Source: an uncultured Tolumonas sp.
GTDB taxonomy: Bacteria; Pseudomonadota; Gammaproteobacteria; Enterobacterales; Aeromonadaceae
DNA: 7,115 bases
Assembly: GCA_903931645.1 (NCBI GenBank)
Contig: CAIZDF010000450.1
Span: 1 to 7,115, forward strand
Reading direction: 5' to 3'
Of the stretch, positions 1-7,105 are shown one piece after another. A model generated the notes under the pieces. That model saw only the letters and a list, made by a program, of their open reading frames with translations, was not told the DNA's origin and made no database searches. Positions within the stretch are counted from its first letter, which is position 1. Every line of letters starts with the position of its first letter. Position numbers and translations under genes: made by a program.

Positions 1-792
1 ATCTTTCAATGCATGTTGTTGCCGCTTCTTTAAGCGCTTTTGCCATTGTTTCGGCAATATCAGTTCTTGAGGCCATTGCTCTTCAAATAAAGCAATATCA
101 TGCAATAACCCTAAGCTTTGCTGTAGCTCAGTTAATACCGGTAGCCGATGATTCTGTCGTTTGGTTAATACGGCCGCAAACCCTTTCCCCCAGTAACGCA
201 ACTGTTTTACATGTAAGCGTAAGGCGTGCCAATCCGCAATTGGGGAGCTTAGTTTTAAATCAGCTGCTGCTTTCAAAAAACGTTTCTCTAATTGACGTGA
301 TTTCTGTCGGGCTGCTGATTGCAAAACACTCTTACGCTTATGCCGCGATTTTCTATCCCAGACCGAACTCACTTGCGATAACGTTTCTGCTAAAGCAGTG
401 GCATGCAAATCAGGCAATAAATGTTGTCGTAATGCCAGCAAGTTATCTGCGAGCAAAGAGACAATCTCCGCTCCGCAACCTGTTTTAGCAGATAGCGATT
501 CTGCGAGTGCCAACCTGACCTCCCGATCCCGATCTTGCCCCGTCAACGCTGCTGCGATTCCTAACTGTTTCTTTTGTTCCCGCATGATATGACAGCGCGG
601 ATACAACCCTTGTAATACCCGCAAACTGCGTAGATTGACCCGCAGATCATGCAGCGCTTCGGTGTCACCATCATCAGCCATTAGCACTAAAGCCTGACTG
701 GCTTTTGATGCTAACGCTGAAAAGTGCGTACTCAATTCCCGGGCAAACGATCGGTTTGATGAAAGCCGTTTTTTATTCTTCGTTTTCGACAT
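1..792 (-). CDS. CHAD-domain protein, partial (C-terminus outside window)
   Basis: The minus strand reads open from an ATG at 792 to the window edge, 264 codons without a stop. An AGGAAA Shine-Dalgarno sequence (complement of 799-804) supports the start. The product shows both halves of a CHAD (conserved histidine alpha-helical) domain. Around residues 48-58 is H-D-L-R followed by regularly spaced arginines (HDLRVNLRSLR). Around residues 189-200 is a second, similar helix (HALRLHVKQLRY). Near residue 225 is the LQQSLGLLHD helix typical of the family. The protein is rich in Lys and Arg, as expected for a domain known to bind polyphosphate. There is no signal peptide or membrane segment, so it is probably cytosolic. 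CHAD domains often accompany CYTH/triphosphatase domains, but no CYTH domain lies upstream within this protein. The CHAD assignment is firm, while its cellular role is inference. The gene is divergent from the PTS gene and may share its control region. Confidence 0.88.
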   Translation of the reverse strand, partial: MSKTKNKKRLSSNRSFARELSTHFSALASKASQALVLMADDGDTEALHDLRVNLRSLRVLQGLYPRCHIMREQKKQLGIAAALTGQDRDREVRLALAESLSAKTGCGAEIVSLLADNLLALRQHLLPDLHATALAETLSQVSSVWDRKSRHKRKSVLQSAARQKSRQLEKRFLKAAADLKLSSPIADWHALRLHVKQLRYWGKGFAAVLTKRQNHRLPVLTELQQSLGLLHDIALFEEQWPQELILPKQWQKRLKKRQQHALKD

Positions 793-835
793 TAGCAGTT
801 TCCTGATGATATCCCTGCTCTTATCCATAAGTATC

Positions 836-2991: not shown

Positions 2992-3026
2992 TTGGTCTGG
3001 CAGCCCCCCTGTCAGGCCAATTTTTT
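2992..3026 (+). terminator. Intrinsic terminator after the PTS gene
   Basis: A 12-bp stem (2992-3003 with 3009-3020, two G-T pairs) with a C-rich five-base loop is followed directly by six T residues and a further T-rich run. It begins 14 bases after the PTS stop codon. Its T-tract contains the end of the convergent radical SAM gene (stop at 3025-3027). On the minus strand no T-tract follows the stem, so it should work mainly for the PTS transcript. Confidence 0.88.
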
Positions 3027-4101
3027 ATTTTATCTCTACCGGTAACCGTCTTGGCCCCCATTTGCCGGGACGATCTTCAAATACACCCGGAATTCTAGTA
3101 CCACAGTGCTGACAGCTGCCATGATGTAAGGCCCAAGTTCCCAGCCGGTATGCATCACGTTCGATCAGTAATTCGCCACAAGAGGGGCACCAGGTACTGC
3201 CATCTTTAACATCATGCACGTTGCCGACATAAACATAATGCAGACCATGGGCTTTCGCGATATCCCGCGCTTGCAACAAGCTGGTCATGGGGGTACGGGG
3301 TTTATCCAGCATATGAAAATCAGGATGAAATGCGGTGAAATGCAAGGGCACATCCGGCCCTAACTCATCTGCGATCCAGCGACACATTGCTTCTAGTTCC
3401 ACCGGAGAATCGTTTTCTCCCGGGATCAATAACGTCGTAATTTCAAACCAGACATGGGTCTCATGTTTTAAATAACGTAAACAATCCAATACCGGTGCCA
3501 AGTGCCCGCCACAGATCCGATGGTAAAACGCTTCTGTAAAGCCTTTGAGATCGACATTCGCGGCATCCATGCCAGCAAAGAATTCTCGCCGTGGTTCCGG
3601 GTTGATATAGCCAGCCGTCACCGCTACTGTTTTGATGTTCCGCTCATGGCAGGCTGCTGCGACATCCAGCGCATACTCCATAAAAATCACCGGATCGTTA
3701 TAGGTAAAGGCGACAGAACGACTGCCGGTTTGCTCCGCCATTTTCGCTAACTGTTCCGGTGTCGCAGCGGCACTCAGAGTTTCCATATGGCGGGATTTGC
3801 TGATATCCCAGTTTTGACAGAACGCGCAGGTCAGATTGCATCCGGCAGTACCAAACGACAGCACCGGCGTGCCGGGTAAAAAATGATGTAGCGGTTTTTT
3901 CTCTATCGGGTCAATGCAAAAACCACTGGAGCGACCATAACTGGTTAAGACTATTTCGCCGCCCTGCGCCATGCGGACATAACACACACCACGTTTACCT
4001 TCGCGTAATTCACACTCACGCGGGCACAACGTACAAATGACATGATCATTATCCAGATGACGCCAATAATGGGTCGCAACGGTATTGTCTGAATTATCCA
4101 T
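3025..4101 (-). CDS. amrS: AmmeMemoRadiSam system radical SAM enzyme
   Basis: This 358-residue protein is a radical SAM enzyme related to pyruvate formate-lyase activases. The CxxxCxxC motif that holds the [4Fe-4S] cluster is C88-x3-C92-x2-C95 (CNLTCAFCQNW). An N-terminal cysteine set, C23-x2-C26-x3-C30-x9-C40, is typical of this subfamily. A C-terminal CPSC...CQHC pair (C305, C308, C330, C333) looks like a zinc ribbon or a second metal site. The ATG at 4101 has a strong GGAGG (complement of 4106-4110), four bases away. The adjacent divergent Memo-like and AMMECR1-like genes give the three-gene family its name. The reaction and substrate are, to my knowledge, not established; the enzyme probably makes a radical-dependent modification with the two partner proteins. 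All key cysteines are present and the length is normal, so the gene appears functional. The symbol is the one commonly used for this family. Confidence 0.9.
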   Translation of the reverse strand: MDNSDNTVATHYWRHLDNDHVICTLCPRECELREGKRGVCYVRMAQGGEIVLTSYGRSSGFCIDPIEKKPLHHFLPGTPVLSFGTAGCNLTCAFCQNWDISKSRHMETLSAAATPEQLAKMAEQTGSRSVAFTYNDPVIFMEYALDVAAACHERNIKTVAVTAGYINPEPRREFFAGMDAANVDLKGFTEAFYHRICGGHLAPVLDCLRYLKHETHVWFEITTLLIPGENDSPVELEAMCRWIADELGPDVPLHFTAFHPDFHMLDKPRTPMTSLLQARDIAKAHGLHYVYVGNVHDVKDGSTWCPSCGELLIERDAYRLGTWALHHGSCQHCGTRIPGVFEDRPGKWGPRRLPVEIK

Positions 4102-4118
4102 ATATCCTCCAGGGTAAC

Positions 4119-4133
4119 ACTATAATTGTAGGT
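4119..4133. promoter_or_regulatory. Overlapping divergent -10 boxes between amrS and amrB
   Basis: TATAAT (4121-4126) is a perfect -10 box for the rightward amrB gene, with transcription starting near 4133 and a leader of about 25 nt. On the other strand, TACAAT (complement of 4125-4130) and TATAGT (complement of 4119-4124) are -10 candidates for amrS. No convincing -35 hexamer is visible in either direction, which would fit activator dependence or weak promoters. Overlapping boxes mean the two promoters may exclude each other. Confidence 0.45.
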
Positions 4134-4145
4134 GACATCTACCTA
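4129..4145. promoter_or_regulatory. Dyad TAGGT-N7-ACCTA, candidate operator for the amr genes
   Basis: TAGGT (4129-4133) and ACCTA (4141-4145) are inverted copies with a seven-base spacer. The dyad covers the predicted amrB transcription start and lies just upstream of the amrS -10 candidates, so one bound protein could control both directions. The arms are short, so chance cannot be excluded. Confidence 0.3.
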
Positions 4146-4157
4146 TTCGGAGGTTGT

Positions 4158-4934
4158 ATGCAGGTCATTCATCAGCCCGCGGTGGCGGATATGTTTTATC
4201 CAGCTGATCCGGAAAGATTAATCAGCTGGATGCAAAACCATGTCCACCCGACAGCAGACACCAACCGTCGGCCACGCATGCTGATCCTGCCGCATGCCGG
4301 ATATCGGTTCTCCGGTGATACTGCAGCGCAGGGTTATCGGCTGTTACAGAAAAGCCAGTTTAAACGCGTGATCGTGTTATGCCCCGCGCATCGGGTTTAT
4401 GTACAAGGTATCGCCGTCCCCACCCGTTGGGATGCGGAAGCAACACCGTTAGGCCGCGTGCCCTTAGACAAAATGGCTATCGAGCAACTGCTCACCTTAC
4501 CGGGCGTGATTGCCATGACGGAAGCGCACCGTCAGGAACATGCCATTGAAGTCCAACTCCCCTTCCTGCAATATCAACTGGGTGAGTTTCAACTTATTCC
4601 CTTGGTGGTAGGCGAATGCCCGCCAGAAGATATCGCCCATGCATTAGAACTACTGATGAACGATGAGACACTGGCAATTATCAGCAGTGATCTCAGCCAT
4701 TACCTCAGCGCCGATATCGCCAAACAACAAGATGAGCAAACCATTCAGCAAATACTGCAATTTGATGAAACGTTATCGGGTGATCAGGCTTGTGGTTGCT
4801 ACGCACTGAATGGCGCTTTGCACTGGGCCCACCAGCATCAGTTAACTATTGAACTATTAGCAAAATGTAATTCGGGTGACGCCAGTCATGATAAAGATCG
4901 GGTGGTAGGCTATGCCGCTTTTGCTTTGTATTGA
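4158..4934 (+). CDS. amrB: AmmeMemoRadiSam system protein B (MEMO1 family)
   Basis: This 258-residue Memo-family protein has the class III extradiol dioxygenase (LigB) fold family signature. Human MEMO1 keeps a metal site made of histidines, an aspartate and a cysteine, and the matching residues appear here. They are His46 in LPHAGYRFSG, His78 in LCPAHRVY, His128 in QEHAIEVQLPFL, Asp178 and His181 in SSDLSHY, and Cys237 in CNSGD. The site therefore looks intact. Whether bacterial members act as enzymes or as metal-binding scaffolds is not settled as far as I know. There is no signal peptide, so it is probably cytosolic. The ATG at 4158 has GGAGG at 4149-4153, and transcription probably starts from the TATAAT box at 4121. 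The gene overlaps amrA by 23 bases, which suggests translational coupling. Confidence 0.9.
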   Translation: MQVIHQPAVADMFYPADPERLISWMQNHVHPTADTNRRPRMLILPHAGYRFSGDTAAQGYRLLQKSQFKRVIVLCPAHRVYVQGIAVPTRWDAEATPLGRVPLDKMAIEQLLTLPGVIAMTEAHRQEHAIEVQLPFLQYQLGEFQLIPLVVGECPPEDIAHALELLMNDETLAIISSDLSHYLSADIAKQQDEQTIQQILQFDETLSGDQACGCYALNGALHWAHQHQLTIELLAKCNSGDASHDKDRVVGYAAFALY

Positions 4935-5499
4935 ATTAACCGAACGTCAGACCATGCTGGCTCTGGCGCGGCAAGCGATTCAAGCTCATTGGTCACAGAG
5001 TAATGCTCCAGTTACCAATAATTTAGCGCATGGCGATCAAAAACCCGGCTGTTTTGTCACATTACGAAAACACGGTGAATTGCGTGGCTGTATTGGCACA
5101 TTAGAACAAGATATGCCCTTGTTACAATCCATTCCTTATTTTGCCCGCGCCGCAGCTTTTCAAGATCCCCGTTTTCCGCCACTGAGCAAAGATGAATTAG
5201 CTGACTGTGTGATTAGTATTTCACTGCTCAGCGAACGTGACCCCATCCCCGCAGACAGCAAAGAGGAATTGCTGGCAGCACTAACCCCTTTTACTGATGG
5301 TTTATGGCTCAGTGATGGTTATCATCGTGCCACTTTCCTACCAGCTGTCTGGCGCGAATTACCGGATAAGAACGAATTTATTCAGCATTTATTGCGCAAA
5401 GGCGGTTGGTCTCCACTAGGCTGGCCGGCACAGATGAAAGCATGGCGTTATAAAAGCATAGAGTTTTCCGAACCAGATGGTGAACTAGTTCGCGAATGA
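4912..5499 (+). CDS. amrA: AmmeMemoRadiSam system protein A (AMMECR1 domain)
   Basis: This 195-residue protein is almost entirely an AMMECR1 domain, the bacterial and archaeal counterpart of the human protein from the AMME deletion region. The hallmark LRGCIGTL is at 57-64 with Cys60. It is followed by the DPRFPPLS segment (85-92) and the C-terminal block ATFLPAVWRELPDKNEFIQHLL (from 140). No catalytic mechanism is established for this fold; the conserved Cys and surrounding groove suggest ligand binding or a role as a modified substrate. The ATG at 4912 lies inside amrB and gives a 23-base overlap, with GGTGG at 4901-4905. Homologues usually begin near ELTERQ, so a slightly later non-ATG start is possible, but no good one is visible. 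It is co-transcribed with amrB. Confidence 0.9.
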   Translation: MPLLLCIELTERQTMLALARQAIQAHWSQSNAPVTNNLAHGDQKPGCFVTLRKHGELRGCIGTLEQDMPLLQSIPYFARAAAFQDPRFPPLSKDELADCVISISLLSERDPIPADSKEELLAALTPFTDGLWLSDGYHRATFLPAVWRELPDKNEFIQHLLRKGGWSPLGWPAQMKAWRYKSIEFSEPDGELVRE

Positions 5500-5556: not shown

Positions 5557-6075
5557 GTGGTCTCTTGTCATCTGCCGGAAATCAAGAAAAAGGAGTTTCT
5601 TCTGGATTCATCAGCTCTATCTCTGTTTGTATTTCGTCTGGATGATCACCTCTACGCGCTGCCACTGGCGGCGGTCGAACGAGTGACCCGAGCAGCAGCC
5701 GTCACCCCCGTTGCCCATTCTGCTTCGATCCTGCAAGGCGTTATTAATGTGCAGGGAAACCTATTACCGGTCATAAACACTCGGCGTATGCTTTCATTAC
5801 CAGAAAGGGAACTGGATATTGATGATGTTTTTATCCTGATCCGTAATGACCAACAACGTTTGGTTATGATCGCAGATGCGGTGCATCAGGTGATAACAAC
5901 AGAAGCCTCCCGCATTGTTCCTGCGGATCATATCTTAAGTCATAACTCGCCATGGCAAGGCTTGCTGGTGCTGGATGATGGCATGGTGTTGATCCAAGAT
6001 CTCGCGGCTTGTATGCGTGAGTTTGATGAACAAATCCAAACGATGCCATCCAAGGAAAGCCTGTCGCATGGATAA
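5557..6075 (+). CDS. CheW-like chemosensory adaptor
   Basis: This CheW-domain protein would link a chemoreceptor to the histidine kinase CheA. The domain starts with LSLFVFRLDDHLYALPL and contains the family hallmark GVINVQGNLLPVINTR; it fills nearly the whole protein. The coordinates use the GTG at 5557 (172 residues), the only conventional start, but it has no Shine-Dalgarno sequence and adds about 15 polar residues unlike CheW. A perfect AAGGAG at 5590-5595 sits six bases before an in-frame CTG at 5602. That start would give 157 residues with a typical CheW beginning, so I think it is the likelier one. The stop overlaps the cheR ATG by eight bases. The order CheW then CheR resembles wspB-wspC of Pseudomonas, but no receptor gene is upstream. 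The symbol is left open because the role (flagellar or other) is unknown. Confidence 0.88.
   Translation: MVSCHLPEIKKKEFLLDSSALSLFVFRLDDHLYALPLAAVERVTRAAAVTPVAHSASILQGVINVQGNLLPVINTRRMLSLPERELDIDDVFILIRNDQQRLVMIADAVHQVITTEASRIVPADHILSHNSPWQGLLVLDDGMVLIQDLAACMREFDEQIQTMPSKESLSHG
5590..5595 (+). promoter_or_regulatory. Shine-Dalgarno sequence pointing to a CTG start at 5602
   Basis: AAGGAG matches the anti-Shine-Dalgarno sequence perfectly. Six bases further is an in-frame CTG (5602-5604), from which the protein would read like a normal CheW. No ATG, GTG or TTG in this frame lies within reach, so the site either serves the CTG or is unused. Confidence 0.5.
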
Positions 6076-7105
6076 TCTGGTTTTAGAGCCCGTCCGTCAG
6101 GCCAGAGATTTCATCTCGCGGCATTACGGCATCCATCACCCGGGCGAACGCCTGACCGATCTGGATCGAAAGCTAACGCAAATTGCACAGTTTCTCGGCT
6201 ACCCACAACAATTTGATTTAATTAAAAATCTATTAGCAGGGCAACTCCCGACGACAGAGCTGCAACAGATGGTTGAAGCGCTGACGGTGGGAGAAACCTA
6301 TTTTTTCCGCGAACCCGATGCCATCGATGCCTTATTAAAGGCCATTAGTCCCAGCATTCGGGAACGCCAGGGCCGGCGAATTAAATTATGGAGTGCTGGG
6401 TGCGCGACCGGCGAAGAGCCCTACTCATTAGCGATGGCATTAGATGCTCATCTCAACGATGCTGAACATTGGGATATCTCTATTCTGGCCACCGATATCA
6501 ATCAGCAATCGTTACAGAAAGCCGCACAAGGTAATTATAAAGCCTGGTCATTTCGCGCGACTCCCACGCATTACAAACAGCGCTATTTTTATCCGCAAAC
6601 AGACGGCTCTTTTGCGCTGGATAGTCGGATCCGACAAATGGTGCAATTTAATCAGCTAAATCTGGCCCAACAGGATTACCCTTCCCCCGCTAACGGCACG
6701 CATCAGGTTGATGTGCTATTTTGCCGTAATGTTTTGATGTATTTTGCCCCACAAACCATTAATCAAATCGTTCAGCAATTTTCCAGATCGCTGGCGCCTG
6801 GTGGTTGGCTGGTGGTCAGCCAGACGGAATGTTCGCATTATTTCCAGCAAGAATTTGAAACGGTGCAATTTGGGCAGGCTTTTTTATTCCGTAAACGCGA
6901 CCCGCATGTGCAGCGGAAGCCGTTACCACTGCCAGAGTTATCGCCTACTGCTCTCTTTGACTATGCCAAATTGCCTGAACCTTCGTTAGCGCAACCACAA
7001 ACAAGGTGGACAACCCCCGAAGCGCCCATCGCCATGCCGGCTGTGGTCAAAAAAAGTAGTGCGGAGCTATTAAAACAAGCACAAACATTGGCTAATCAAG
7101 GCTGA
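6068..7105 (+). CDS. CheR-type chemoreceptor glutamate methyltransferase
   Basis: This protein transfers a methyl group from S-adenosylmethionine to receptor glutamates during adaptation. The 345 residues hold an N-terminal CheR helical part (about 10-85, with TVGETYFFREP at 73-83). The methyltransferase fold follows, with LWSAGCATGEEPYSLAM at 107-123 (SAM-binding loop), the acidic ATDIN at 141-145 and FCRNVLMYF at 218-226. From about 280 a proline-rich linker follows, and the last residues, SSAELLKQAQTLANQG, look like the first helix of a TPR repeat. The frame then meets TGA. Past it the frame would read L-N-E, as expected for the second TPR helix, so the gene may be a cut version of a CheR-TPR (WspC-like) protein. 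The ATG at 6068 overlaps the cheW stop and follows AGGAAA (6053-6058). An earlier in-frame ATG at 6017 would overlap more and lacks family support. Confidence 0.88.
   Translation: MDNLVLEPVRQARDFISRHYGIHHPGERLTDLDRKLTQIAQFLGYPQQFDLIKNLLAGQLPTTELQQMVEALTVGETYFFREPDAIDALLKAISPSIRERQGRRIKLWSAGCATGEEPYSLAMALDAHLNDAEHWDISILATDINQQSLQKAAQGNYKAWSFRATPTHYKQRYFYPQTDGSFALDSRIRQMVQFNQLNLAQQDYPSPANGTHQVDVLFCRNVLMYFAPQTINQIVQQFSRSLAPGGWLVVSQTECSHYFQQEFETVQFGQAFLFRKRDPHVQRKPLPLPELSPTALFDYAKLPEPSLAQPQTRWTTPEAPIAMPAVVKKSSAELLKQAQTLANQG

Follow-up and report, generated by a model that had tools for sequence, protein, structure and literature searches.

What reaction, if any, is shared by a radical S-adenosylmethionine (SAM) enzyme, a Memo-family protein, and an AMMECR1-domain protein whose genes are kept side by side? 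The question is raised by a 7,115-nucleotide stretch of DNA from an uncultured Tolumonas sp. (the whole of contig CAIZDF010000450.1 as analysed, assembly GCA_903931645.1; here called the window). An initial annotation had placed a complete AmmeMemoRadiSam cassette at positions 3025 to 5499, and the genes and coordinates were found as claimed. Profile searches with the three AmmeMemoRadiSam models bore out the family assignments as well. The radical SAM gene (amrS type; 3025 to 4101, minus strand; 358 residues) matches TIGR04337 with 621.7 bits against a cut-off of 220, and also PF04055; the Memo gene (amrB type; 4158 to 4934, plus strand; 258 residues) matches TIGR04336 with 259.1 bits against 26, and PF01875; and the AMMECR1 gene (amrA type; 4912 to 5499, plus strand; 195 residues from the ATG at 4912) matches TIGR04335 with 193.3 bits against 99, and PF01871.

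Judged by its sequence, the window trio is an intact, ordinary member of the known AmmeMemoRadiSam system, and no feature was found that would distinguish this copy. The main interest lies rather in the strict co-inheritance of the three families, in their fusion in two main orders, and in a second, leader-bearing form of Memo-AMMECR1, from which we tentatively propose a reaction in two separable stages. Human MEMO1, associated with cell motility and iron handling, and human AMMECR1, associated with a developmental disorder, are likewise proteins without a known reaction.

Co-inheritance and fusion of the three families

Profile searches of 185 gammaproteobacterial genomes identified Memo in 94, AMMECR1 in 93, and a radical SAM protein of the main type in 91; all three are present in 89 genomes and none in 90. 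The number 91 excludes genomes whose sole match is of the second type, at 220 to 315 bits (G056, G088, and G116), 94 being the number over the cut-off. Fragments at contig ends were retained except for a 32-residue piece in G028, and the Fisher's test on this co-occurrence treats genomes as independent. Memo and AMMECR1 occur without a main-type radical SAM protein in G008, G028 (the 32-residue piece), G098, and G116 (the second-type match); AMMECR1 is missing from G167, and G123 has the radical SAM protein only. The Memo and radical SAM genes are divergent and within 600 bases of each other in 70 of the 90 genomes having both.

In a phylum draw of 120 genomes, Memo and AMMECR1 were found in an identical set of 53, all of which also have the radical SAM protein, and G203 has the radical SAM protein alone. 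The Memo and radical SAM genes lie within 2.5 kb in at least 30 of these 53 genomes, 28 of them with both genes on the same strand (a lower bound, as many assemblies are fragmented; two radical SAM matches of ~294 and ~304 bits were left out). Since only 30 of 53 show this proximity, the co-inheritance seems not to rest on linkage alone, even with draft contigs blurring the count.

The trio had also been suggested to work alone, and for trios of the window type this stood. Across 111 loci, 30 of them only ~4 kb long, the trio families occur in 96, 74, and 62 loci and the most widely shared other family in 13, and no conserved neighbours of the cytosolic trio were identified in these loci except lineage-bound ones. 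The 73 neighbour proteins examined around atypical loci include no family represented more than twice.

Proteins uniting all three domains are known in two main arrangements. Among the best 120 of 1804 such triple fusions, 93 have the order radical SAM-AMMECR1-Memo and 22 the order radical SAM-Memo-AMMECR1, and these proteins provide natural single-chain versions for biochemistry. On the basis of strict co-inheritance and frequent fusion, the trio is predicted to act in successive steps of one reaction. Three-domain fusions and near-perfect co-occurrence would also suit a standing complex in which the three proteins share an active site and perform a single reaction. We consider such a complex quite unlikely: the second form described below has a leader on Memo-AMMECR1 and none on the radical SAM protein, and the models of two fusions reached predicted template modelling (pTM) scores of 0.67 and 0.59 and came without inter-domain error, so that no domain arrangement is supported. 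In fusions of the planctomycete type, AMMECR1 and Memo are set apart by an additional ~200 residues (residues ~600 to 790 of P0073), which by eye resemble another AMMECR1 copy lacking the Cys motif.

Invariant residues of the three proteins

Conservation was derived from 218 radical SAM, 191 Memo, and 181 AMMECR1 aligned domains of more than 60% coverage, near-duplicates included, and the value of 100% that applies to every site residue given below is a rounded one. The initial annotation had described all predicted metal sites as intact, and at the level of residues this held for the radical SAM motif, the Memo site, and the AMMECR1 cysteine alike.

In Memo, the fully conserved residues are H46, H78, E127, H128, E131, D178, H181, D192, and C212. 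All are on the plus strand, with H46 (4293 to 4295) and H78 (4389 to 4391) as predicted metal ligands, D178 and H181 at 4689 to 4700, and C212 at 4791 to 4793. C212 corresponds to human C244, a metal ligand of MEMO1: in the profile alignment ACG stands opposite ICG, and the title of structure 7m8h names a C244S metal-site mutant. A passage of PMC11081632 gives H49 and H81 among the human metal ligands. The possibility that bacterial Memo uses another metal ligand was considered and ruled out, as C212 sits at the ligand position in the profile alignment; C237 falls in a variable column and is not the site.

Memo and AMMECR1 were both found in Thermotoga maritima and Methanocaldococcus jannaschii (control lists), and in Segatella hominis the trio is located on a plasmid; all three organisms are strict anaerobes. 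Their gene content bears on the idea that Memo is an O2-dependent extradiol dioxygenase for which the radical SAM enzyme prepares the substrate. We regard this as highly improbable, because Memo and AMMECR1, or the whole trio, occur in such anaerobes, because Cys replaces the Glu ligand, and because MEMO1 was inactive with the substrates tried, according to a passage of PMC11081632.

The AMMECR1 protein has C60 in the motif LRGCIG (5089 to 5091), D85 and R87 (5164 to 5172), and K163 (5398 to 5400), all on the plus strand. This invariant Cys-Asp-Arg-Lys set looks catalytic, as does the strictness with which the two proteins are paired with a radical SAM enzyme. Both argue against the view that Memo and AMMECR1 are not catalysts and instead handle iron or copper. 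That view, for which the copper binding reported in PMC9477392 speaks, appears very doubtful. AMMECR1 is ranked among the top-priority uncharacterised archaeal proteins in a passage of PMC6393860. A protein-isoaspartate methyltransferase gene (PF01135; L118:4598-5314) comes directly after the Memo gene in G167, a genome that lacks an AMMECR1 match.

The PF04055 domain of the radical SAM protein scored 68.2 bits against 29.5, and its CxxxCxxC motif (C88, C92, and C95; 3817 to 3840, minus strand) is present, which places the protein in the radical SAM superfamily. Two further cysteine sets, both on the minus strand, are fully conserved. The N-terminal one (C23, C26, C30, and C40; 3982 to 4035) could hold an extra cluster or a zinc site. 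The C-terminal one (C305, C308, C330, and C333; 3103 to 3189) seems dispensable in places, since the Segatella relative matches only profile positions 11 to 286 of 349 and the set falls outside them.

Weak similarity to activases and a shared fold, together with glycyl-radical matches in the window's own genome, would fit a protein that activates a glycyl-radical enzyme. We give this role almost no credence: the scores of 56 against 231.75 (TIGR02493) and 49.1 against 174.35 (TIGR02494) are far under the activase cut-offs, and a PF01228 or PF13597 match is present in only 11 of the 89 trio genomes (hand tally). With no such target in the remaining 78, glycyl-radical activation is excluded as the common function.

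A radical SAM gene on a Sinorhizobium terangae plasmid (L132:5941-7083) encodes a protein 66% identical to that of the window. Many genomes have a second TIGR04337 match of ~220 to 315 bits (e.g., G126:C2:117621-118604 and G001:C36:16224-17207). The single in-frame TGA in eight second-type radical SAM genes was rejected as a sign of a selenoprotein; it is an ordinary stop after GVWT, GVWS, or GVWA, and the sequence downstream is unconserved.

A leader-bearing form and a proposed two-stage reading

Memo of a second type, mostly fused to AMMECR1, was collected from the phylum draw as a hand-chosen set of 17 loci in 16 genomes, not as a full survey. A leader here means a leader-like start according to a simple sequence rule, with six refetched gene rows counted once; the residue rule used for the two 120-protein lists was stricter than that used for the loci. 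A signal-peptide-like leader was found in 11 of the 17 second-type Memo loci, compared with none in two other groups of Memo loci, of 57 and 14. None of the eight radical SAM genes that accompany the second form (seven adjacent and one ~9 kb away) has one, nor do any of the best 120 of the 1804 triple fusions. Because Memo-AMMECR1 bears a leader that the accompanying radical SAM protein does not, the second form is unlikely to work as a fixed unit of three proteins. The tested residues of both sites are all kept in 10 of the 11 leader-bearing loci.

Among second-type homologues (best 120 of 2996 proteins), 96 have a leader by rule, and all 120 retain every residue tested, nine in Memo and five in AMMECR1, conservation in such lists being biased to close relatives. 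One protein, P0121, is 100% identical to the L136 query and is named from a metagenome-assembled genome (MAG) of Magnetococcales. Fused copies with residues of both sites altered together were seen in L152 to L154, from genomes of one family; this joint alteration fits a single joint function but could be one event.

The gene for a two-stretch Gate protein (PF07670, nucleoside recognition), which we take to be SpmA/SpmB-like, is near 9 of the 17 second-type loci and near none of 146 others, 30 of which are ~4 kb long. For the second form, the suggestion that the trio works alone therefore did not stand, and the interpretation in the initial annotation is partly supported. The Gate gene loci are L136, L138, L139, L140, L142, L143, L149, L155, and L156, with longer fetches L163 to L165, L168, and L169.

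The reading that we favour, while rating it at somewhat less than an even chance, is a two-stage relay in which the radical SAM step would occur in the cytoplasm and Memo and AMMECR1 would form a separable catalyst with two sites. In the first stage, the radical SAM enzyme would cleave SAM at its CxxxCxxC cluster and perform the radical step, which is placed in the cytoplasm because it requires a reduced cluster and SAM, as is established for radical SAM enzymes. A small molecule would then be handed to Memo and AMMECR1, acting as a single catalyst with a metal site and an invariant Cys: iron or copper would be held at H46, H78, and C212 of Memo, and C60 of AMMECR1, with D85, R87, and K163, would have a covalent or acid-base role. 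Export of Memo-AMMECR1 with both sites intact, if it occurs, would make the stages separable, and this separability, together with fusion in two main orders read as consecutive steps, favours a relay over a standing complex. As the Gate gene lies near the leader-bearing form, our guess is that the molecule passed on is nucleoside-like. The second step probably needs no O2, given that T. maritima and M. jannaschii have both Memo and AMMECR1 and that the S. hominis plasmid carries the trio. The leader-bearing form, if exported, would put the Memo-AMMECR1 step in a different place from the radical step and would thus make the division of labour testable; we do not claim its first description.

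A bolder version of the relay, which we hold to be unlikely, is that Memo and AMMECR1 are a complete catalyst with two sites, periplasmic in Magnetococcales and relatives with a nucleoside-gate transporter, that the radical SAM enzyme only makes the substrate, in the cytoplasm, and that the human pair is the second half supplied from another source.

Several observations weigh against the two-stage relay. The analysis showed no reaction, metabolite, or protein modification. The co-inheritance has exceptions in both directions, with the radical SAM protein present without Memo in G203 and G123 and Memo and AMMECR1 present without it in G098, and in the control lists Haloferax volcanii matches AMMECR1 and not Memo, and Thermus composti Memo and not AMMECR1. 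The Sinorhizobium plasmid has a radical SAM gene and no Memo match, in a search that covered the plasmid only and not the chromosome. The leader calls come from a simple rule, not from a trained predictor, and in the leader-bearing L155 two Memo residues are altered and the frame contains no AMMECR1. The link to the Gate gene may reflect shared ancestry, as the named second-type loci are mostly from Magnetococcales and from one phylum draw.

The radical SAM protein could instead be a maturase that modifies Memo or AMMECR1, or else a peptide handled by the two, ahead of their own action and, in the second form, ahead of their export; sulfatase maturases likewise modify their targets before these act. 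This is conceivable, and we rate it as rather unlikely. A maturase fused to its target, here in two main orders, would to our knowledge be unusual, and we know of no radical SAM partner of this family for human MEMO1 and AMMECR1. The candidate target in Memo would be G251, which lies in a VVGY stretch found in 191 of 191 main-type domains, a stretch reminiscent of the radical loop of pyruvate formate-lyase. The residue is Ser in 118 of the 120 listed second-type proteins (best 120 of 2996), which speaks against a maturase. On the other side, and to the disadvantage of the relay, the nearest solved relative, the pyruvate formate-lyase-activating enzyme, works on a protein, and according to passages of PMC7159879 and PMC12710340, peptide-processing systems include related radical SAM proteins, and Memo-like proteins bear a recognition domain of ribosomally synthesized and post-translationally modified peptides (RiPPs).

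A glycyl radical on G251 was itself dismissed as a mechanism of general validity: the residue is Ser in second-type Memo although radical SAM genes adjoin it in the loci examined, and Gly is kept in G098 and G116, both without a main-type radical SAM match. The second-type sequence at this place, SVSY, resembles the VSY of human MEMO1, and eukaryotic Memo may descend from the second-type branch, with Ser instead of G251.

The window locus and known systems

The window trio is adjacent, with the radical SAM gene divergent from Memo and AMMECR1 across a gap of 56 bases. Memo and AMMECR1 overlap by 23 bases when AMMECR1 is taken from 4912; an alternative start is possible at the ATG at 4954. The intergenic stretch (4102 to 4157) contains the near-palindromic CTATAATTGTAG (4121 to 4130), in which -10-like elements of both strands overlap (TATAAT at 4121 to 4126, plus; TACAAT at 4130 to 4125, minus) and which is kept in three Tolumonas relatives (L032 to L034). 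The stretch is a possible two-way promoter for the divergent genes; a consensus promoter scan found nothing in 4102 to 4157, which counts against this role.

The trio is flanked by genes for a CHAD protein (1 to 828, minus strand) and a fructose-type phosphotransferase system permease (1049 to 2977) on one side and for CheW (5557 to 6075) and CheR (6017 to 7105) on the other. The window's own genome has one match over the cut-off for each of Memo, AMMECR1, and the radical SAM protein, and the closest locus, in a Tolumonas MAG, encodes a radical SAM protein 98% identical to that of the window. The trio region had no match among 50,697 phage records.

The abstract of a 2019 study by Burroughs et al. 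is said to link Memo to nucleotide-base and isoprenoid modification. A literature search at passage level, with a 2019 J Biol Chem superfamily paper outside its reach, found no reaction for the trio; a passage of PMC7159879 mentions "recently-described Memo-Ammecr1 systems," citing Burroughs et al. 2019. The AMMECR1 structures PH0010, MM0484, and ST0229 (1vaj, 1zq7, and 1wsc) include none with a known function. At the place of G251 in bacterial Memo of the main type, human MEMO1 (7kq8, 7l5c, and 7m8h) carries Ser. The iron ligands of class III extradiol dioxygenases (3vsg, 3wr8, and others) are two His and a Glu or Asp, whereas the third ligand position of the window Memo is a Cys (C212). The pyruvate formate-lyase-activating enzyme (3c8f and 3cb8) has the radical SAM core fold and the CxxxCxxC motif in common with the window protein, which differs in its extra Cys sets at both ends and its activase scores below the cut-offs, and most trio genomes lack a match to the target family. 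The known system that the locus fits is AmmeMemoRadiSam itself (TIGR04335, TIGR04336, and TIGR04337; amrA, amrB, and amrS): its models are of the "hypoth_equivalog" kind, with no reaction attached, and the window passes all three cut-offs with adjacent genes.

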